Origin: Xestospongia muta
Taxonomy: Eukaryota > Porifera > Demospongiae > Haplosclerida > Petrosiidae
Length of the DNA stretch: 64,000 nt
Direction: 5' to 3'
Assembly (NCBI GenBank): GCA_963693285.1
Contig: OY848921.1
Location: 1,302,001-1,366,000 of the forward strand
Shown piece by piece: positions 1 through 46,885 of this stretch. How positions within the stretch are numbered: the first letter of the stretch is position 1; every line of letters starts with the position of its first letter. The notes under the pieces are model-generated. The model was not told where the DNA came from and made no database searches. It saw nothing but the letters and a program-made list of their open reading frames with translations. The position numbers and the translations under genes were made by a program.

Positions 1-16970
<16,970 letters not shown>

Positions 16971-17097
16971 ACAGTTGACACTTGAAGTAATTTATGTATT
17001 GATGTCTCATTTTATACAGTAATGTTAAATCATAATAATTATCTTGTTTTTGTATATTTAGTGATAAATTATGCTTTTATATAAATTATTTTATTTT

Positions 17098-17103
17098 AAT
17101 AAA
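17098..17103 (+). terminator. Polyadenylation signal AATAAA of the adhesion GPCR
   Basis: Canonical AATAAA about 130 bases after the stop codon at 16970. The copied 3' flank near 35775 carries the same AATAAA. Confidence 0.7.
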
Positions 17104-17298
17104 GTAAACCTTTTGTTTTTACAATTATTTCTGATAACTTACAAGCTCTGTATTATTTTGCCACATGTCTGCTGATAGTTAAGAATATCACATGAGAAAT
17201 AATGTAATAACATGATAATCCAAGTTTGTACATGTGGATCAGTTCCAATTTACAACACCCTAATTTATTATATCTTACCCTATAAATTGTGGATTTAG

Positions 17299-17327
17299 TG
17301 CAGTGGCCTGGTAGAGCGTGTTGGCCC
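17299..17327 (+). mobile_element. Solo end of a foldback repeat
   Basis: A 29-base segment beginning GCAGTGGCCTGGTAG matches the terminal part of the foldback element at 35978-36105. It sits in the same flanking context (TAAATTGTGGATTTAGTGC) as that element, so it marks the right edge of the segment shared by the two loci. Confidence 0.6.
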
Positions 17328-19118
17328 CTGGTAGTTATTGCAATGTTGGTCTTAATGGAACATATGGTAACGAATCAGTGTTCCTGGATTCTACATTTAC
17401 CATTACACTTTCATCTGGTAAATTATATTAAAGCTGCTAATAGTATTATATTGTTCTCATATTAACTACAGCACCCACTTCATCCACCAATAATGTCACT
17501 ATATCATCAATTGAGGCGAGGTCCATGACTGTCTTTTAGGATGAGGTACCATGCTCTGGACAGAATGGACCCATTACTGGCTATTTGCTCTACTAAACTA
17601 ATGCAACATTCAATGACACAGTTAACATTATTGGAGGCGACAACAGACAGTACAACCTCACAACACTCATGCCTTACACTAACTACACTGTGACAATAAC
17701 AGCATACAATGATGGTGGGATTGGACCAGCAAGCAGTGAGATAATACAACAGACAGGAGAAGATGTTAATTTTTATTGTTAATACTGGTAATATTTATAT
17801 ACTGTAGAACCTGGTGTGGTATCTGGTCTAATACAAGGTGGCACAGAGATACAAATGATCAATATTACATGGAATATACCCACAGTACCCAATGGTATCA
17901 TTATCATGTATGAGATACGTTATAGAGAGTCTAACAGCAACAGACCATACAATATGACTAATACAACCAACACGCAGTACAATATACAAGGATTACTATC
18001 ATTTACTAACTATACCATTGGAGTGAGAGCATATACCAGTGTAGGACCAGGAGAATGGACTGATAGACAATACATTATTGTTTATGTGCCAAGTAAGAAC
18101 TTCAGCAATCACGTTTTTCTTGTGTCAATGTTAATCTCTACAGATGTAGTAGGTCTGTCTATAGAAGTAATTGATGGTAGAGTTTTAATATCATGGACTC
18201 CATTGAACAATACATATCTCACAAGTTATATAATACAATATAAAGAGATTAATCAAATGGAATTACAAGAGATTGACTTGCCACCATCTGTCTCACTTGT
18301 TGGACTACCACATTTAGAAGAAGGAAAAGTGTATGCATTTCAAATATTCAATGTGCTAACAGTTAATGATATGAGATATAATGGTTCTTTATCTTTACCA
18401 GTTACTATACTAGTTACAAAACAAATAACACCAACAATAATCCCATCAGTTTGTCCTCTACTGTCATCTACATTAATAACAATTACTGAAAAGGTATTCT
18501 GTCATAACTTCTCTCCTTTACTTAATCCACAGGAAAGCTATTCCTGTTCTGTAGCAGATACTGTTACTCCATCAAAAGATCCACAGGAGAGTTGTACAGG
18601 TCCTCTAGTTGGTATAGCAGTAATAGTAGTTATATTACTAGCTATTTTAAGTTTATTTATTGGATTAGTTCTCTATTGTCATAAGAAAAAGAAATATAAT
18701 ATAACAAAGTATGATAACAATTAATACATAAAATGAGTTGATTCTGTTTCTATAGCAACAACGAGTCCATTTCCATGACAAGCAGTCCAGCATATTCTAG
18801 GATAGAGACTGGTCCATTTAACTCCACATCACTAGGACATTATGAAACTGTCGTACAGTATGTTAAATATAAATATAATTAGTACTATTTTATAACAACA
18901 TTGAAATATCAAACATTGTCTCTAAGAAGTAGTGATATTATAATATACATCATGATAGTTTTAATTGTACGTGTATGTGGTAATATTAATAATTATGATT
19001 GTGATATATTATATTTCATAGAAAAACTGAAGAACCATTATATGAGACAACAGTTGATCAAGAAGATTCAATTTATGAACTCACTGATTCTCTTACTCCA
19101 TATAAACTTATTCATTAA
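17328..19118 (+). pseudogene. FN3-type single-pass receptor with tyrosine-bearing tail, probably decayed at its 5' end
   Basis: A possible 5' fragment lies at 17331-17418 (CNVGLNGTYG). FN3 domain 1 at 17472-17766 has in-frame TAG (17537-17539) and TAA (17594-17596). FN3 domain 2 (exon 17808-18092) and domain 3 (start of exon 18144-18708) are open, with the FN3 pattern NITWNIP ... YEIRYRE ... YTIGVRAYT. The third exon continues into a TM helix of about 23 residues (GIAVIVVILLAILSLF...) followed by HKKKK. Tail exons 18756-18857 and 19022-19118 join in phase and give Y-E-T-V, L-Y-E-T and I-Y-E-L motifs, ending at TAA 19116-19118. The 3' half looks functional and the first FN3 dead; no signal peptide was found. 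Confidence 0.6.
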
Positions 19119-25209: not shown

Positions 25210-26207
25210 ATGTATTTTCTGAGGACCTCTTTATTTCTGATATTTGTCTTTTTCTCACAGCCACAACCATCAGAGTGCAGTATACAACAAGATGACTCGT
25301 GTACTGATCTGACCCGAGTTCCTGAAACTAATGGCTCTTCCGTGGTACTTGCTTGTGTAAGACTTATAGAGAAATCTGAGATCTTTACAAACGATTACCA
25401 AACTTTACGTCGAATAGCCTTTGTTGAGACTGCAGATGGTACTAAACAGAGTACCTACAGACCCTATTATCATGGTGGCATATGGGCAGTAAATGAAAGT
25501 GTCTTTCTGTCAACAAAAACTTCTACCAATGTCACTATTCGAAATCAGATACAGTCATTCTTTAGCATTGATTGGTCATCTGTGGAATGGAAAGACCTTC
25601 GAAAACCTCTGTACTCAGCTCTGGCTGCCAGAATTTATATCAACGAGATAAGTCAAAATGTAGATCTCAGTCAAGTAAGTAATCAAGCATCCTTCTGGTC
25701 AGCCACTTACAATGGAGCAGGTGAAACTGCAATTTATATTAATGCATCCAATAGTCTGGGTAATTATCGAAATGGTAAGTAATGCTGTGTTATTTATAGT
25801 AGTTTTAGTAGCGAGTATAGTCTATAATATGACTATGTTTCATAATAACTTTGAATTTTTTTACACAGTATCAATTGGTGAATATGAAATTGAGTTTAAT
25901 GTCAGTAGGAGACTGACAAAAGATGAATGGAGTTATTTACAAGTTTCATTAACTGATGATTCATTAGATTCAATCATTGAAATTGCTGTCTCGGTATCAA
26001 ATGGTCAAACGCTGTTGTATGTATCCGATCTTATCATCCCATCTGAAGCTGTTTCTTGTGCCAAAATCAATACCACAACAAATGGACGCACGTACATATC
26101 TCCAAGAACTTTGAACCTTCATTCAAACAAACTTTACATTGGTGTTTTTGAAAAAAAGGATGTAGAAAATAGTTTTACAGTGTCTGTTGCCAAAACAGAT
26201 TTAAAAG
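25210..26207 (+). other. Unrecognised N-terminal domain of the receptor kinase
   Basis: Secreted-type region of about 300 residues over two exons. After the signal peptide it shows IAFVETADGTK, YHGGIWAV, SIDWSSVEWKDLRKPLYSAL and N-glycosylation sites; the second exon is beta-rich (YEIEFNVSRRL). The Glu followed by a GGIW-type motif faintly recalls lysozyme-like folds, but I cannot assign it to a family. Confidence 0.4.
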
Positions 26208-29200
26208 GTAATAATCACATTAACAGTAACAAATGTAATTATAGTTTCAATGTCATTTGTGTTTTTTCTTTGACATGACTGTGTTGTATCTTTACTAGAA
26301 ACACGAGCGTAATTCCAACACATAGGCGGAGGAAGCTCAAAAAGTTGGGGGGGCTGAACATATTTGTACACAGTTTCACATGCAAAGCATACATTTTAAA
26401 AATGAGAATTAAAATGCACCAAAATATTTTCTTCGTTCATCATTTTTTGAACAAACTCCTTGGCAAGTTCTTGCAGATCTACTAGTAATAAATGTTAGAA
26501 TGCAAAATGAGTAACTCTATGTAAAAGTTGGGGGGCTCTGCCCCCCCTTTATAAAAGTTGGGGGGCATCAGCCCCCTTCACCCCCACCCTCAGCCGCCTA
26601 TGCAACATAGTATTGTTTGTCATGTAGCTGGTTAGTAGTACTCATATGTTTTTATAATATAGTATCATAGCTCGATATGAGTAGTATTGTTGTTATGGTG
26701 TGTTATAATTGTAGTATAACTGTTTCTTAATAAGTTGGATTTACGGTCATTACCAATGAAAGCAGATTCAGCTATTCAGTACTATAGTAATAATAATCTT
26801 AATTGCCAATAATCATTCCATTTGTTTGTTTCCTTCTTGTAGTTATTCAAAATATGAACACTGAAGCTAATCAATTCTTCATTGGATTGTTTAGTAACCA
26901 TCCTGATACTGGCTCTGTTCCAATATCTTTGCTCATTACAACTAGTAGTTCTGAGCCTGTTAATATCATTGTGGAGTCCATTGATGGTGAACTGTTCTCT
27001 GGACAAATAAATTCGTCACAGACAGCTGAGTTTTTTATTCCTGATACGTATATTGTTTCAAATATTTCTGACAGAGAGATGGGTCTCCTTGTTAAAGCTG
27101 AGAATGGGAAACATATTAGTGTATCAGTGAGCAATCATCATTACTATTCCAGTGACTCATATCTCGCTTTACCTCTTATTAAGTACTCTCGTATCGACCA
27201 GTACACGTATTATGCTTTGACACCTGAAGTCAATTCTACAGATCTAAAGAGCAGGATACTTCTAGTGGGTGGTTACAATAGTACAAATGTAACTATCACA
27301 CCCACACAATCTATCTACATTCCACAAGATCTGTCTCCAACAGGCCAAATTTATGAATTGCAACCATCAGAATCTTTGACAATTCAACTAAACATGTTTG
27401 AGACCCTCTTATTAGAAAGTGAATCAACATTGTCAGGAACAAAAGTTGTGTCAAACAAACCAATAACTTTTCTTTCAGGACACCAATGTGCAGTTATACC
27501 TAACACTAACGGATCATGTGACTTTGCTATTGAACAATTTCCACCTACCATTAACTGGGGTAAAACTTTCATGTTTCCTATACTAGCATCTCGTCCAGGA
27601 GAATCACATTTGTCAATCATGGCAGCAAAAGAGAACACAAGAGCTGACATAATATGCTCGTTTGCCAATGAAATTGATGACAATATTTCTGATTCTTTTA
27701 ATCTTGCCAATCCTGGGGACTTCACATCTATTTCTGTAGCTCCTGACAATGTCATATGTAGCGTAGTCACTGATAAACCAGTTCAACTTGTTCTTCTTAG
27801 TACGAGTGAAGGTACAGATGATGGTGATGGAGATCCCCTCATGATGTTGGTACCTCCTGTGGAACAGTATTCAACAGAAACCATTTCATTTACAGCTCAT
27901 AAAAGAGATTTTGAAAATCATTATGTCAACTTGGTTGCAAGTGGGGCTTCCTCTCATATACTTTTAGATGATGCATTAATTTCATCTGATTGGGGAACTG
28001 TAACATCAAAAAATGGAACCATTCTTGGCTATGCCATCCAACTGAACTTGACTGATACAACACATACTATATCAGTCAGTAACAACTCTACAGTGGTTGC
28101 TGCTATGATGTATGGATTTAACTTCTCTGTCGGTTATGGACAAATAGCTGGTACGAAGCTCTTTCTAACTGATGGTAAGTTATGATAACATTATGTTCTT
28201 GTCATAAAAGGCTATTATCAGTAATGTTATCATAATACTAATGATGTTTGCATTATTTAAATTATTTTAAAAAACCAACAATACACAGCTTACATACTTA
28301 ACTAGATATTTTGTTTATGTTTTGACTTTATAGGTAACTATGAACCACTCAAAGTAAATGTTGATTTTGGAAGTGGCCAAGTTTCAGTTGGTCAGAGCAT
28401 ACAGTTAACATGCACTACTACAGGACCTCCAGCATATGCTATACGTTGGAAACAAAGCTCCACATTAATCATGCCATCTCGTAAATACTCCATTGTCAGT
28501 AACAGCTTAGACACCAGCATACTGACCATCTACAATGCTAGTATTAGTGATAGAGGAACATACGAATGTATTGCTTACAGCTATTATACTGCTGACATTG
28601 CATCTAAGGAAGATACTCTCACTGTTGATCGTAAGCACTATATAAAATTTCTTTAACAATTTAATTGTTATATTTTGTTACAGAACCTCCCTTATTAGTG
28701 TATTTTTATATTACAGTTCTATATCCTCAGGGCTTTTGTCAACTATAACATACTTTCCATCACGATCTTCAACTATTTCTAAGCCTATGTCAGCAACAGA
28801 ATATGTTCCATCTTCCTCACCTACAACAGTACAACAGTCAAACTCAAATAATTCTTTTACAATTATCATGGCCATGGTAACAACAATTGCTATCCTACTT
28901 CTTTCTTTAAGTTTGGTGATTATTATGGTGGTGTGTTTTAAAAAAAAAAGGAGGAAGGGCCAAGCAAGGTAATGTAGTCAGTGAGTTTAATATAACCAAA
29001 TGGGATTTGGATGTATAGTCATTGTTATTATGCGAAAAGACTGTCACAAGCAATATTAATAGTAACACTGACATGCAATCCTAGTATTATTTTGGGCAAA
29101 TTGTATATGTATATATTCAATGTAAAAGCAATCAGTTGTTTTAACAACCAATTTGTACATTACATCAGTCGATTACTATATAATCTAAAAATCATGTGAA

Positions 29201-30858
29201 TCACTCACTACATATATAATTTGTTGTTTTGTAATAGTATAATATGCAAATAAATAGACTATGAATAATAGATCTGATTGTAGATTCCATACAAATCCAC
29301 TGGTGTAAACAAGAAATTGAATGTTATAATAACTTATTAATTTTTACAGTGATTTTCTATATACATAGTAGCTACTATTTTCAGTATTAACAAAGTTCTA
29401 TTATTTTATTACATCAACATAATATATAGTTGAAAACAACTGGTAGATTAATTTTCAAATCTTGTTTTGTAGCTTTCAAACAGATATCTCCATGAAAATT
29501 TGTTGTAAGGATAAATGATTAACTAAATATCAATAACATATCTTTCCTACTACAGCAAGTAATATTACTACAGTATACAAAGACACCAAAGAAGAAAGCA
29601 CTAGACTTAGCATTTCGTCATCATGTTTGCAATTAAATCAGTTATCAGATACCAGGATAATTTCGGGATCCTTTTTACAATTACATGAGACTGTTGGTCA
29701 AGGTATCATTGATAGGTTTTCTGATTTGTATTATATTATGTAATTGTAGGTGAATTTGGAATAGTATATCGAGGACTACTAACTAAAGATGGCGATGTCA
29801 TTAATAATGTTCCCATGCCTGTTGCTGTTAAAACACTCAAAGGTTAGTGATATTAACTCTGAGATCATTTATAATTCTGTAACATGGAAGGCCTTTACAG
29901 AAAAGAAGATGTCAACTCCATTATAGAAGAGAGTCTAAAGATGTCCACTTTTGATCATCCTAATATACTTTCTCTTATCGGAGTTTGTCTTGATCTTGGT
30001 GAGGCACCTCACATTATAATGCCTTTTATGGCTAGAGGTAGTCTGTTGTCTTATCTCAAGAAAGAGAGACCAAATTTAACAATAGCAGAGAACAGTGATG
30101 ATGATGTTACACTTGATTCAAGGAAACAACTTCTTTCTATGTGTTTACAAGTTGCTAAAGGAATGTCATATCTAGCTCAACAGAGGTTTGTTCACAGAGA
30201 TCTTGCTGCTAGAAACTGCATGTAAGATGAGTCTATCCTCCTTAATCTTATATTACATCTCTATCATTTTAGGATTGATGCTAATGGAATTATTAAAGTT
30301 GCTGATTTTGGACTCTCAGAAGATATATATGTAGATAACTATTTTAGACAATGGAGAAGAGATGATTCCAATAGCACAGCTGCTATAAAACTGCCTGTTA
30401 AGTGGATGGCTATGGAAAGTCTTCACGATGGTCTGTTCTCAGAGAAGACAGATGTTGTTAGTACATTATTAATTTATTAACAGTATTCTTCTATTCAAAT
30501 ACACAGTGGTCATATGGTGTATTATGTTGGGAGGTATTCAGTCTTGGTAAAATTCCCTATCCTGGATTAGATCCACTGAGTGTGGTTCAGTTACTAGACA
30601 GTGGAGGCAGACTTATCTGTCCTAGTAATGCGGCATGTTCTGAGGAAATGTAAGGAACAGGACATCATCAGTAATTGTTTACTCATGCCAACTTACATTG
30701 TCTTTAGATACACGTTGATGATGTCCTGCTGGAAATATAATCCAGGGGAGAGACCAACATTCTCTGATTTAGTTCAGTCTGTAGAAGACATTATGAAACC
30801 ACTAGCTGGCTATCTTGATTTCACTGCTTCTTATGTTGAAGATTCTATCTATTATTAA
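25210..30858 (+). CDS. Receptor tyrosine kinase with IgGFc-binding-like + Ig ectodomain
   Basis: Eleven exons in consistent phase, about 1271 aa: 25210-25774, 25869-26207, 26843-28174, 28334-28630, 28731-28968, 29560-29702, 29750-29842, 29891-30221, 30273-30456, 30507-30649, 30708-30858. The signal peptide begins MYFLRTSLFLIFVFF. Next come an unrecognised N-terminal region, an IgGFc-binding-N-like domain (26843-28174), one Ig (28334-28630; LTCTT ... YECIA), a TM helix and a complete kinase: GQGEFGIVY loop, VAVK lysine, [18 protein letters not shown] activation tyrosines, PVKWMA, GERPTF. Sponge receptor kinases are known for varied ectodomains on similar kinases. Likely ligand-activated at the cell surface; ligand unknown. 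Stop TAA at 30856-30858. Confidence 0.88.
26321..26602. mobile_element. MITE-like element in an intron of the receptor kinase
   Basis: Terminal inverted repeat CATAGGCGG ... CCGCCTATG, flanked by 5-base direct repeats CAACA on both sides. Inside are three copies of AAAGTTGGGGGG(C) and a G/C-rich end unlike the AT-rich surroundings. No coding capacity. Intron 26208-26842. Confidence 0.75.
26843..28174 (+). other. IgGFc-binding-N-like domain
   Basis: A single exon of about 443 residues. Features match the N-terminal domain of IgGFc-binding proteins: LALPLIKYS..., NVTITP, KPITFLSGHQCA, CDFAIEQFPPTINWGKTF and FSVGYG near the end. The family occurs in mucin-like secreted proteins; here it sits outside a kinase, presumably as a ligand- or matrix-binding module. 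Confidence 0.7.
29560..30858 (+). other. Kinase region, copy A (complete)
   Basis: All subdomains are present: glycine loop in exons 29560-29702/29750-29842, VAVKTLK lysine, alpha-C Glu in exon 29891-30221, HRDLAARN (around 30190-30215), then [16 protein letters not shown], activation-loop Y-V-D-N-Y, APE-equivalent PVKWMAMES and the C-lobe. Copy B (39812-40584) is almost identical from the HRD-side exon onward but lacks the N-lobe. The acceptor for 29560 is the second AG of CTACAGCAAG; only that choice keeps phase with the TM exon. Confidence 0.85.
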
Positions 30859-31865
30859 ATCTATTTAAACTGAGCATTAAATTGACATTAATTTTGACGA
30901 TAATAACTATTGATAAAATTGTTGTGTAATCAATATTTTTTGCTGTGTTACATTACAAACTGACTATTTATTTTTAGAAGACTCCAAAGATACTATGAGT
31001 AATCACTATATCTTTATGAATTGTTTTTATTTGGATTATAAGATGAGTTGTTTGTTTTAGTTTTGCCACTAATATGGTGTATGTATATAATAGTATATGG
31101 GAGATTTAAATGTATCAATTTATTTAAATGTAAATGAAGTAAGCTATTGGTTACCTTATGAAGGTAACAATTAACGTAGTTCATTTCATACATCACAAAT
31201 GATAGGGTTGCATCTTGTCATTAAAAACTTTCTTTTTGTGGACATTAATCAGTCTCTATCAAGGTACATTATATTTTATGATACCAGTAATACAGTCACT
31301 TATGTAGGTGGTATTACTAATTTACTATGTTACTTTAGTTTTGACTATTTAAGTCTCAGTTAATTTATGTTGTAGCTATCACATTTACTACTCTAATATT
31401 GACTGTATTATTAATACTTATCTTTCCTCAATAAATAAAATAATTTACCATCATTTACAACGAACTTCTCTGCCTTTTTTCTTATTTGTCTTTTTCTAGT
31501 AGCAGTGTATTCTTTTAAATATCTTTTTACCATGATATACAAACTTCATCTAATAGATCAAAGTCATCTCTCTCTCTCTCTTTGTCATTTTTTTAGCTCT
31601 CCTTTCAATAGTAACACGTTATTGAAGGTCAAAACATTTCTTTGACAATTTCTTGAATTTTTGAGTTAGTACAAGTATTGTTTGTCACTTTACTGCATTC
31701 TTCTATTATAGGCTAGGATAATTGGAATTAGTCATTTTGATCTGGTAGCTATAGGACAAAAATTTACAACAGCAGAGAAAAAATTTCAATAGTATAGTTG
31801 GATTATTTTGCTCTAGGACCAAAATTTTGGGGAGACAAAAAAAATTAATAGGCGTGGTCTGAAGT
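30859..31865. other. Intergenic region, copy A
   Basis: About 1 kb of AT-rich DNA almost identical to 40585-41629. No gene. Contains short CT runs (31568-31582). Copy B carries an extra segment of about 50 bases just before the ACAD10 start (41555-41610). Confidence 0.6.
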
Positions 31866-35039
<3,174 letters not shown>

Positions 35040-36003
35040 AGAAAAGAAAATCTGGTCCCACAGCCTCTACCTCTCTGGCTACTAAGGAACGGAGACAAAG
35101 GTTTAATAAAGGCAGCACTAAAAGCACTTCCAATGCTGGTGAAGAATTTTCCTTTACATCAAGTCTTGAAGATGATAGATATGGCACTCTTCAACGCAAT
35201 GTTCAAAAGACTGGAATACTCAACGAGTACAGTACACTCAAACGTTTTCAACAAGCACCAATTGGAAAAGGTTTGCCTTTAATCATTGAAGATGATGAAG
35301 TAGACCAAGACCGTCAGTCACCAATTTTGATTGAAAACGCAGGAATAATAGGTTCTGAAGAAGACTCTGATAAAGCAGAATTGGAATATGGCGTGGCAGG
35401 ATTTGAGTTACCTGAAGGTGTATATGATTATGTTTTTGATAGTGCTTCTGTTGGGGGAATGACAATTGTCTCCGAAGATGGCAAAGAATGTACCGTATTT
35501 GAAAATCCATGGAACTTCAAGAAATGGATCCTTTTTACAATATTGAGCGTCCTTCCACATCTGCCTCTCAGCACAGCTTCAAATCGGCAGATTTTATAGA
35601 TGAATCACAAACTTCATTCACTAATCCATTTGCTTTGTTTAAGAAATAAACAGTTGACACTTGAAGTAATTTATGTATTGATGTCTCATCTTATACAGTA
35701 ATGTTAAATCATAATAATTATCGTGTTTTTGTATATTTAGTGATAAATTATGCTTTTATACAAATTATTTTATTTTAATAAACTAAACTTTGTTTTTACA
35801 ATTATTTCTGATAACTTACAAGCTCTGTATTATTTTGCCACATGTCTGCTGCTAGTTAAGAATATCACATGAGAAATAATGTAATAACATGAAGATCCAA
35901 GTTTGTACATGTGGATCAGATCCAATTTACAACACCATAATTTTTATATATCTTACCCTATAAATTGTGGATTTAGTGCGGTGGCCCAGTAGGTCACGTT
36001 GGC
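35040..36003 (+). pseudogene. Copied 3' end of the adhesion GPCR
   Basis: Matches 16361-17327 almost base for base: the cytoplasmic-tail part of the last exon, stop, 3'UTR, polyadenylation signal and flank. A 1-base deletion (GAAAATCCATGG against GAAAACCCAATGG, near 35508) shifts the frame. There is no upstream 7TM; the left edge is fused into ACAD10 copy A and the right edge ends at the foldback repeat. Confidence 0.9.
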
Positions 36004-36105
36004 CCCTAAACCCTAAACCCTAAACTAAAATGCAACCTACCAGGCCACCGCAGTTTAGGGTTTAGGGTTTAGGGACCAACACGACCTACCGGGCCACTGC
36101 AATAT
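35978..36105. mobile_element. Foldback element with TTTAGGG repeats
   Basis: Arms of about 49 bases: left GCGGTGGCCCAGTAGGTC... to CCCTAAA repeated three times; right arm the complement, TTTAGGG three times then ...GACCTACCGGGCCACTGC. The loop holds a third, shorter copy of the end (GCAACCTACCAGGCCACCGC). The same end lies solo at 17299-17327. Confidence 0.8.
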
Positions 36106-37493: not shown

Positions 37494-39421
37494 ATGAAGA
37501 TACTTCTGTTCTTATCAGTTGTACTGATAGTAATACTGCCATTAGCTACTGGACAATGCCCTCTCCCTACAGTTGATGATATAGAGAGGGAGTTGAATGA
37601 TCTACTTGTTGATGCAGATTCAGGAGGAGGACCATATAATCCTAATGTATCATCACATCAATATACTTGTCTTGCTCAAGGATCAACTAGACTTACTTAT
37701 CGTAGAGTGTCCATTATAGCTACATTTACTCCTAACAGTGGACAACCTTCACAAACTCAACACTTTCAGTTAGAGTGTTCAAGTGGTACATGGAGTCCAG
37801 TAACTAATGATGGTTTTGGTACTCCTCCCTCCAATCCAATGGAAAGAAGAGATTGTTTAACTTGTGTACTTGAAAATCTTGGTGGTGACTCTAACCATTG
37901 TTCAGGTAAGTTAACATGATATTGTTGTTGATATTATTAATAATGTATAAATAGAGTGTAGTGCAACCTGCAGGAATATAGGACAAGGAAGTTGTGTAAC
38001 ATCCATTAATGATTGTTGTCCATTCTTTGGTCTTGATAATATGTGTACTACATCATGTCCAACTAACTACATTGCTAATGCTGATACCAACTTTACATGT
38101 GGTAAGTAAACTAATATATATATATATAATACATTGATCCTGTACTATATAGTCTGTAACTATACCTGTGGTCCTGGTGAAGTTGTTAATCCTACATGTA
38201 ATGGATGTAATCTGACTGATATCTGTCTACGAGATGTACCTTGTCAAAATGGAGGATCATGTATATTATTATCTGCCCCTGATAATTACACATGTGATTG
38301 CAGTGGTACTGGATATATTGGTACTAATTGTACTGGTAAGCTGTCTATGTTATTACATACACCTTGTCTTTGAGTTTGTTACTGCTAAGCTAGTACAGTG
38401 AGCACATGTTATGGGAGCTACAACAAGAAATTTTTTAATGTAAAAATAAACATGACATTGTTTTAATTACTGTAATGTTATGTTTATGTAGCTAGTAGTA
38501 CATCAGTAATAAAAACAGTGTTATGTTATTTTTACATCATACTAAGTTTGCTACATGCAGCCTGTACACTGTAAAAATTAATATGTCATTTTAACAACTA
38601 ATTTGTAGCTTACGTGGATGGAATACTATGGAATATAGAATTCTTGTGAATTACCCACTAATTTGTTGGTATGTTGTACTTTTACATATCAATAAATAAT
38701 ATAGTGAGTAATTCACATAAATTCTATATTCCATAGTAATCCACCCACATAAAGTACAAATTAGTTGTTAAAATATATAACATATTAATTTTACACTGTA
38801 TAACAATATATTGGTTAAATCAACAGGTAATTTTTTAAGGTGGGAAGGTTAGGATTGTAATTACAAAGTGAAGAGATTGTGTAAATTAAAGGAGTGGATC
38901 AGAAACAAGCAATGAGGGAGTTATTCTCATTTTATATTGTTTCTGTGGGCATTTATTTATTAATAAATAAAGCATATTGTCACAACTAGCTCTTCTCCTC
39001 AACATTCATTTCCAATCCTTTTACTTTCTCTTTATTTAAAACTCTCACTTATAAGATTTCAATAATAAAATAACAAGAAAAGTGAACCATCATAAAAACA
39101 ATTTGCACTGACTTTTTTTGCCAATGTATTTCAATGGACAACCCACCCCATCCTAGCTACCACATGCCTAATAATTCAAAACTTATGAGTGTATTTTTAT
39201 ATTACAGTTCTATATTCTTAGGGCTTTTGTCAATTACAACATACTTTCCATCACGATCCTCAACTATTTCTAAGCCTATGTCAGCAACAGAATATGTTCC
39301 ATCTTTCTCACCTACAACAGTACAACAGTCAAACTCAACTAATTCTTTTACAAGTATTGTGGCCATGGTATCAACAATTTTAGTCCTACTTCTTTCTTTA
39401 ACTTCGGTGATCATTATGTAG
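37494..39421 (+). CDS. Cys-rich/EGF membrane receptor lacking a kinase (copy B ectodomain)
   Basis: Exons 37494-37905, 37955-38101, 38153-38335 and 39222-39421 join in phase 1. ATG 37494 opens a clear signal peptide (MKILLFLSVVLIVILPLATG). Next come a region with a Cys-pair CLTC, a Cys-rich exon (SATCRN ... DCCPFFG ... CTTSCP) and an EGF (CQNGGSC ... CDCSG ... GTNC). The fourth exon is homologous to the TM exon of the receptor kinase (28731-28968): same Ser/Thr stalk (STISKPMSATEYVPS) and TM helix. TAG 39419-39421 ends the protein where copy A continues VVCFKKKRR. Predicted product: a receptor of about 313 aa without kinase, possibly a decoy. The upstream ATG-less start at 37452 was not used. 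Confidence 0.7.
38565..38802. mobile_element. Foldback/MITE element with long inverted repeats
   Basis: Arms of about 100 bases: TACACTGTAAAAATTAATAT ... TTTTAACAACTAATTTGTA ... CTATGGAATATAGAATTC on the left and the complement on the right, ending ATTTTACACTGTA. It sits inside intron 38336-39221 of the Cys-rich/EGF receptor. No coding content. Confidence 0.8.
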
Positions 39422-39453
39422 TAGTGTGTTTTAAAAGAAAAGGAGGAAGGGTC

Positions 39454-39811
39454 TGTGATATCCTTTGAACTCTTTGAACACTTTCACTCTTAGATTTTGT
39501 TTGTAATTATGTTAGTTGGTTAGTATCTCTACTGTAAATTGGTGCTAATTTGTGTTAATAGTTTTGTCACATAGCTCTTTATTGTTCTTGATTTTGTATA
39601 AATAGGATTTAGTTTTTCTGTCATTCGTTTCATTAAAAATTATTTCAACTTAACCAAAAACTACATTTGGTGATGAGGGTTGTGGATTTCAACTAAATAA
39701 TGGCTACTGGTACAACGCAATTTGGGACTTTCAACGAATTCAATTCCGATGTGGAGACAATCGCAAAATACCTTGATCGGGTGCTACTATATTTCGAAGC
39801 AAATGAAGTGG
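39454..39811 (+). mobile_element. 5' end of an LTR retrotransposon (LTR, primer site, gag start)
   Basis: A putative LTR of about 212 bases (39454-39665) starts TGTGATATCC and ends CTACA, with TATAAATA at 39597 and ATTAAA near 39632. It is followed by a primer-binding-like TTTGGTGATGAGGGT (39666-39680) and an ATG at 39700 opening a gag-like reading frame of about 37 codons. No 3' LTR or pol is seen. It replaces the part corresponding to 28960-30085 of copy A. It is a genomic fragment and not autonomous. Confidence 0.6.
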
Positions 39812-40584
39812 GAGAGAACAGTGATGATGATGTTACACTTGATGCAAGAAAACAACTTCTTTCTATGTGTTTACAAGTTGCTAAAGGAATGTCATATCTA
39901 GCTCAACAGAGGTTTGTTCACAGGGATCTTGCTGCTAGAAACTGCATGTAAGATGAGTCTATCCTCCTTAATCTTATATTACATCTCTATCATTTTAGGA
40001 TTGATGCTAATGGAATTATTAAAGTTGCTGATTTTGGACTCTCAGAAGATATATATGTAGATAACTATTTTAGACAATGGAGAAGAGATGATTCCAATAG
40101 TACAGCTGCTATAAAACTGCCTGTTAAGTGGATGGCTATGGAAAGCCTTCACGATGGTCTGTTCTCAGAGAAGACAGATGTTGTTAGTACATTATTAATT
40201 TATTAACAGTATTCTTCTATTCAAATACACAGTGGTCATATGGTGTATTATGTTGGGAAGTATTCAGTCTTGGTAAAATTCCCTATCCTGGATTAGATCC
40301 ACTGAGTGTGGTTAAGTTACTAGACAGTGGAGGCAGACTTATCTGTCCTAGTAATGCAGCATGTTCTGAGGAGATGTAAGGAACAGGACATTATCAGTAA
40401 TTGTTTACTCATGCCAACTTACATTGTCTTTAGATACACATTGATGATGTCCTGCTGGAAATATAATCCAGGGGAGAGACCAACATTCTCTGATTTAGTT
40501 CAGTCTGTAGAAGACATTATGAAACCACTGGCTGGCTATCTTGATTTCACTTCTTCTTATGTTGAAGATTCTATCTATTATTAA
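39700..40584 (+). CDS. gag-kinase chimeric reading frame (kinase copy B without N-lobe)
   Basis: From ATG 39700, about 37 gag-like codons ([19 protein letters not shown]...) run in frame into kinase sequence at about 39812 ([16 protein letters not shown]). The exon ends at 39947 and continues in correct phase through 39999-40182, 40233-40375 and 40434-40584. [17 protein letters not shown] and GERPTF are intact, but the glycine loop, VAVK lysine and alpha-C helix are absent, so ATP binding should fail. Expression would depend on the LTR promoter. It could equally be an unexpressed relic; the conserved frame and splice sites may simply reflect the recent duplication. Confidence 0.5.
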
Positions 40585-41629
40585 ATCTATTTAAACTGAG
40601 CATTAAATTGACATTAATTTTGATGATAATAACTATTAATAAAATTGTTATGTAATCAATATTTTTTGCTGTGTTACATTACAAACTGACTATTTATTTT
40701 TAGAAGACTCCAAAGATACTATGAGTAATCACTATATCTTTATGGATTATTTTTATTTGGATTATAAGATGAGTTGTTGGTTTTAGTTTTGCCACTAATA
40801 TGATGTATGTATATAATAGTATATGGGAGATTTAAATGTATCAATTTATTTAAATATAAATGAAGTAAGCTATTGGTTACCTTATGAAGGTAACAATTAA
40901 TGTATTTCATTTCATACATCACAAATGATAGGGTTGCATCTTGTCATTAAAAACTTTCTTTTTGTGGACATTAATCAGTGTCTATCAAGGTACATTATAT
41001 TTTATGATACCAGTAATACAATCACTTATGTAGGTGGTATTACTAATTTACTATGTTACTTGAGTTTTGACTATTTAAGTCTCAGTTAATTTATGTTGTA
41101 GCTATCACATTTACTACTCTAATATTGACTGTATTATTAATACTTATCTTTCCTCAATAAATGAAATAATTTACCATCATTTACAACAAATCTCTCTGCC
41201 TTTTTCTTATTTGTCTTTTCTAGTAGCAGTGTATTCTTTTAAATATCTTTTTACCATGATATACAAACTTCATCTAATAGATCAAAGTCATCTCTCCCTC
41301 TGTCATTCTTTTTAGCTCTCCTTTCAATAGTAACACGTTACTGAAGGCCAAAACATTTCTTTGACAATTTCTTGCATTTTTGAGTTAGTACAAGTATTGT
41401 TTGTCACTTTACTGCATTCTTCTATTATAGGCTAGGATAATTGGAATTAGTCATTTTGATCTGGTAGCTATAGGACAAAAATTTACAACAGCAGAGAAAA
41501 AATTTCAATAGAATAGTTGGATTATTTTGCTCTAGGACCAAAATTTTGGGGAAACAACTTTTTTCGTGACAGTACTTAGATGATTATTATTATTAAAACT
41601 TTAAAAAATTAATAGGCGTGGTTTGAAGT
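40585..41629. other. Intergenic region, copy B
   Basis: Near-identical to 30859-31865 with an extra segment of about 50 bases at 41555-41610. No gene seen; probably holds the ACAD10 promoter. Confidence 0.6.

Positions 41630-46885
<5,256 letters not shown>

Follow-up and report, generated by a model that had tools for sequence, protein, structure and literature searches.

The window analysed here is a stretch of 64,000 nucleotides from the sponge Xestospongia muta, in which an LTR, a short piece of retrotransposon leader and gag, and the C-terminal part of a tyrosine-kinase gene lie end to end, with the gag start codon opening a frame that runs into the kinase. The kinase part belongs to a receptor tyrosine kinase (RTK) copy, here termed B. 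The intact paralogue of B, copy A, is found 10 kb upstream of the fusion; farther upstream, at a distance of about 110 kb and outside the window (about C5:1226.2-1231.8 kb), is a third copy, C. The retrotransposon part was compared throughout with a related element on contig C8. The features are as follows.

25210-30858, + strand: copy A, an intact 11-exon RTK of 1266 aa and paralogue of B, with IgGFc-binding-like, Ig, transmembrane (TM) and kinase regions; exons placed by hand
35039-36007, + strand: GPCR 3′ fragment directly adjoining the copy A block, a copy of 16359-17329; the parent ORF matches PF00002 (7tm_2)
39182-39453, + strand: relic of the copy B RTK TM exon, cut by the LTR; 91% to 28691-28959 (copy A) and to copy C
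39454-39665, + strand: LTR of 212 bp; start, end and motifs read in the sequence, ends fixed from other genome copies
39668-39678, + strand: candidate primer-binding site, read in the sequence and compared with the C8 copy
39700-39813, + strand: first 38 gag codons, providing the start codon of the fusion (ATG at 39700), assigned by identity to the C8 element
39811-39815, + strand: breakpoint with 5-bp microhomology; GCAGA is common to C8 gag and copy A, and B reads GGAGA
39813-45054, + strand: right block of B (kinase C-lobe and HAD-like hydrolase gene), a copy of 30087-35041; HAD label via the copy A exon (PF00702)
39814-39947, + strand: remnant of kinase exon 8 (ENSDDDVTL...HRDLAARNC) without the N-lobe half; B and A 98% alike over 1014 bp from here; PF07714
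39999-40182, + strand: kinase exon 9 (DFG, activation loop, APE-equivalent region), with copy A-like splice sites
40233-40375, + strand: kinase exon 10, with copy A-like splice sites
40434-40584, + strand: kinase exon 11 and natural stop; the tail keeps the YLDF, YVED and IYY tyrosines

With respect to the retrotransposon portion, the LTR reads TGTGATATC at its start (39454) and ACTACA at its end (39665), and contains TATAAATA (TATA) at 39597-39604 as well as ATTAAA at 39632-39637. A genome search gave at least 14 matches, including the window's own, which is the single LTR match within the window. Among 11 other copies aligned, the start TGTGATAT is common to 10 and the end ACTACA to eight. 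Three bare LTRs (L004, L005 and L007) are flanked by 5-bp target-site duplications, and in that of L003 four of the five bases agree. At B, the last 5 bases before the LTR are GGGTC, presumed to be the left target-site duplication and the sole side surviving; the homology with copy C runs on through GGGTC, beyond the LTR insertion point.

Searching the genome with the leader and gag start found one other locus, on contig C8, where a Ty3/Gypsy-type element is 92% identical over 39668-39815. The match of the LTR plus gag to this copy (E = 3e-127) is not a chance one. Read piecewise, the C8 relative encodes parts of gag/protease, of RT/RNase H and of integrase, arranged as in Ty3/Gypsy elements (PR, RT, RNase H, integrase). 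In Pfam, RT, RNase H and integrase score above their cut-offs, and PR falls just short of its own (20.4; cut-off 20.7). The earlier note had proposed looking for full-length relatives of this LTR. A relative of Ty3/Gypsy type was indeed found, but it is disrupted, with its pieces in different frames and stops between them, and no second LTR was found in the 6.4 kb examined.

The primer-site-like sequence described in the earlier note is present at 39668-39678. It differs from the C8 copy by two CpG-to-TpG changes, the second of which makes the ATG of a 7-codon upstream ORF (39673-39696) that precedes the gag ATG of the fusion; the C8 copy has neither this ATG nor the ORF. Five differences were flagged as CpG-to-TpG or CpA-type, the upstream-ATG change among them. 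Pattern searches, a tRNA family search and tail comparisons gave no match for a primer tRNA of the candidate site, the tRNA list being incomplete (64 family matches from 63 of the 6293 candidates scored, with 36 tRNAs fetched). The best of the tRNAs compared agrees with the C8 site at 9 of 12 bases. ARAGORN names for several tRNA genes differed between two runs.

From the ATG at 39700, the fusion ORF continues through four exons (39700-39947, 39999-40182, 40233-40375 and 40434-40584), using the same splice sites as copy A, and encodes 241 aa with no internal stop before the natural one. Three introns are retained in the kinase part at the copy A positions. Kinase homology to copy A begins at 39813, and the 98% identity over 1014 bp is not attributable to chance. 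The Pfam PF07714 match to the fusion begins only at profile position 101 of 258, and thus the G-loop, ATP-binding lysine and alphaC region are absent, whereas HRD, DFG and the remainder are present. The activation-loop tyrosines are kept along with those of the tail. The structural description in the earlier note is therefore upheld in each of these respects: the LTR with its TATA and the gag ATG directly before kinase copy B can all be read in the sequence, the gag frame passes into ENSDDDVTL and on through correct splice phases to the natural stop as an open four-exon frame of 241 codons, and the ATP-binding lobe is lacking.

Among 34 related kinase exons found, the N-lobe half directly adjoins in 33, and B is the sole exception; the 34 were counted from 42 scored C-lobe DNA matches as those reaching to within 9 bases of the N-lobe half, the other eight, which begin further in, being excluded, and the match lists are lower bounds. 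Looking for other copies of the fusion, as the earlier note also suggested, yielded only that of B as a gag-kinase fusion in the genome, again from match lists that are lower bounds. As regards an annotated fusion protein outside this genome, comparison of the 38-residue gag leader with 240 listed proteins (120 listed of 677 matches plus 120 listed of 2243, candidates ranging from 0.55 to 1.75 times the query length) gave nothing better than E = 0.29. The best named protein matches are from sponges, with Amphimedon queenslandica reaching at most 75% identity among the 120 listed of 677 and at most 65% among the 120 listed of 2243. Among the papers found on in-frame fusions of gag to host sequence, on kinase capture and on Gypsy elements of sponges, titles and abstract openings contain no report of this fusion.

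At the join, gag codon 38 runs into kinase exon 8 midway along its length; nothing is left here of the remaining element, the second LTR or the kinase N-lobe. The gag and kinase frames coincide here, an outcome with a prior chance of 1 in 3. On the other side of the LTR, the TM relic retains its splice acceptor, carries a TAG (39419-39421) immediately after the TM codons, and terminates precisely at the LTR start. Because the RTK's own TM exon lies upstream and is cut at the LTR, the order of events is that the LTR inserted into an RTK copy and not that the kinase was copied into an element. Upstream of the relic is a small gene (37494-38335) with a signal-peptide-like start, judged by eye, and an EGF exon (PF00008) ending in phase 1. 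The acceptor phase of the relic (39222-39421) matches this EGF exon, and the relic frame stops right after the TM codons. Exon sharing between the two could possibly produce a secreted-to-membrane chimera.

The surroundings are repetitive, with a GPCR unit present at least three times and an RTK/HAD block three times (partial at B), the pieces being 92-98% alike. The rearranged junction between the HAD gene and the GPCR fragment is the same in A and C and is not found after B, which has its own right flank from 45055. In exon 3 of copy C (L034, C5:1225501-1235500), a CAA codon has become the stop TAA; no other stop was seen in the projected coding sequence. Copy C also carries an insert of about 137 bp (C5:1229687-1229828) immediately before its TM exon. 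Part of the insert is an inverted fragment of that exon, and the insertion point coincides with the left edge of the B TM relic. At the end of the GPCR fragment (36005-36075) are inverted runs of telomere-like CCCTAAA and TTTAGGG, and the unit at 37556-38433 has nine copies in steps of about 1.2 kb at C5:1237961-1248857 (L039 and L040), between large repeat units.

Three-way alignments of A, B and C, with gap columns excluded, reveal a sharp difference between the two sides of the LTR. Specifically, B alone differs at 23 of the 270 TM relic sites, versus 43 of 4761 in the kinase/HAD block (Fisher p = 1e-13). Divergence of the right block is roughly even along its length, averaging about 2% from either A or C. 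This jump at the LTR/gag segment implies either that the two sides differ in age or that the right side was homogenised by gene conversion. When five related copies on C12 and C7 are used as outgroups, B has several derived states in common with A; at one site all five outgroups side with B against A and C, and at a second site three of five do so. Such conflicting site patterns among the three copies are what exchange or gene conversion would be expected to leave.

In terms of selection, the kinase coding exons and introns contain six B-only sites, of which four are synonymous, one is nonsynonymous and one is intronic. At the nonsynonymous site (copy A position 30588), B agrees with three of the five outgroups, and at one of the synonymous sites (30647) with all five; thus, three clearly B-derived coding changes remain, all synonymous. 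This pattern weakly favours constraint, as far as so few changes can, and much of it may predate the fusion. With five B-only coding changes, two of them matching outgroups, we rejected selection as proof of function. In simulations of 3-6 random mutations, the frame stayed open with a probability of 0.41-0.64 when indels were included and 0.77-0.87 with substitutions only, so that openness counts for little as evidence of function. In the TM relic, the B-only changes (11 nonsynonymous versus 3 synonymous) are as they would be without constraint.

With respect to known systems, tr-KIT arises from an internal promoter of an intact gene. The gag-onc fusions of acutely transforming retroviruses place a gag start codon in frame with tyrosine-kinase sequence and are processed cDNA captures, with a complete kinase in a mobile virus. 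The B fusion shares the in-frame gag start. It differs from these fusions in retaining introns, in having no N-lobe and in carrying a single LTR; intronless host sequence and a complete kinase domain are wanting, as are two LTRs in the window and, among genome matches that are lower bounds, further copies. In the part of PMC3980740 drawn on here, tr-KIT and i21-VEGFR-1 are described as C-terminal truncated RTKs without kinase activity and with reported effects on Src, and i21-VEGFR-1 as arising from an internal promoter of an intact gene. The B fusion likewise has part of the kinase domain and the C-terminal tail without the ATP-binding domain, the rest of the kinase being kept, and by analogy its product could possibly be a tr-KIT-like C-lobe adaptor; unlike the two proteins of that account (PMC3980740), it belongs to a gene copy of its own and begins with a gag leader. 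LTR-promoted truncated RTKs are recorded in human cancer in the sections of PMC5134097 used here, namely ALK-ATI from LTR16B2 and truncated ERBB4 from MLT1C/MLT1H; ALK-ATI retains its catalytic domain and starts at a host ATG in exon 20, and the ERBB4 start sites are undefined there. The B locus resembles those cases in that a sense LTR immediately precedes the intracellular part of an RTK gene and could promote a 5′-truncated protein. In contrast to ALK-ATI as described in those sections, the B fusion has lost half the kinase (the N-lobe half), has no catalytic domain and takes its start codon from gag. Finally, the portion of PMC4299795 consulted describes crocodilian ERVs that captured host mRNAs (KIT-ligand and nectin3, the latter with six insertions in one species) inside otherwise proviral elements. 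The B locus is similar in having a host signalling or adhesion gene beside retroelement sequence, and differs from these mRNA captures, as that portion presents them (PMC4299795), in being a genomic breakpoint.

The earlier note likened the locus to a retroelement-captured kinase at birth, and a gag start and kinase in one frame, as in gag-onc fusions, would fit capture of the kinase through an RNA intermediate. That proposal does not survive the three retained introns, the one LTR match in the window, the one fusion found in the genome, the TM exon upstream of the LTR, or the HAD gene downstream in synteny with copies A and C. We consider RNA-mediated capture exceedingly unlikely, and reject it on the retained introns and synteny. 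Instead, the introns, single LTR, single fusion and upstream TM exon indicate insertion of the LTR into a kinase gene followed by a breakpoint, and not copying of the kinase into an element. The TM exon, copy C and the divergence jump go beyond what the earlier note described. A plain local deletion, confined to one RTK copy that already carried the LTR and involving no exchange among the copies, would account for the collinearity of TM exon, LTR, gag and kinase with copy A and for the microhomology at the join. However, it predicts equal similarity to A and C for the TM relic and the kinase block, and the observed 23/270 versus 43/4761 would require the relic to evolve about nine times faster; this divergence jump disfavours a plain recent deletion, which we regard as improbable.

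It is very doubtful that the junction is an assembly artefact uniting haplotypes or repeat copies: the locus does lie within a large array of repeated units, but the junction is inside an 8.7-Mb contig, and B has its own substitutions throughout as well as its own right flank. As for a functional LTR-driven truncated RTK, several features are consistent with it: the frame is open and has a start codon, splice sites and a stop, a TATA is present, the activation-loop and tail tyrosines are retained, the three clearly B-derived coding changes are all synonymous, and the part of PMC3980740 drawn on here offers a precedent. Against this stand the 1 in 3 chance of an in-frame join, the upstream ORF before the gag ATG, and mutations too few to demonstrate selection, and such a function appears unlikely. 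The more specific proposal, a sponge gene of recent origin whose promoter, start codon and leader come from a retrotransposon and whose catalytically dead RTK C-lobe would act as a ligand-independent adaptor or a dominant-negative of the intact 10-kb neighbour, seems to us quite unlikely.

Taken together, these observations are most consistent with the fusion being a neutral chimeric ORF that arose by DNA rearrangement, a reading that assumes non-expression and to which we assign a probability of about 0.72. The intact frame and splice sites count against neutrality. Most likely, the fusion has no selected function, and the suggestion in the earlier note that it might be a relic holds. In this reading, a Ty3/Gypsy-family LTR element inserted in the TM exon of an RTK copy, and a DNA breakpoint at the microhomology then followed. 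The right block may be a recent arrival, derived from copy A or one of its relatives and added to an older LTR relic through microhomology-driven template switching or through duplication; alternatively, a local deletion may have occurred, after which the right side would have been kept young by gene conversion. The LTR promoter may drive a normally spliced transcript, giving a 241-aa C-lobe protein that, lacking the G-loop, ATP-binding lysine and alphaC glutamate, is predicted to have no catalysis; the earlier note suggested such a product as a possible pseudokinase or substrate trap.

The stages of this history are still legible at the locus, in the intact copy, the LTR relative and the TM relic. 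If the fusion is expressed, it would be a case of a transposon creating a non-catalytic kinase gene beside its intact sister copy, and if the adaptor or dominant-negative reading were true, a protein of the tr-KIT type would have arisen independently here. If it is not expressed, it would provide a worked case of a chance in-frame chimera and would illustrate why an open frame is, by itself, poor evidence for function.
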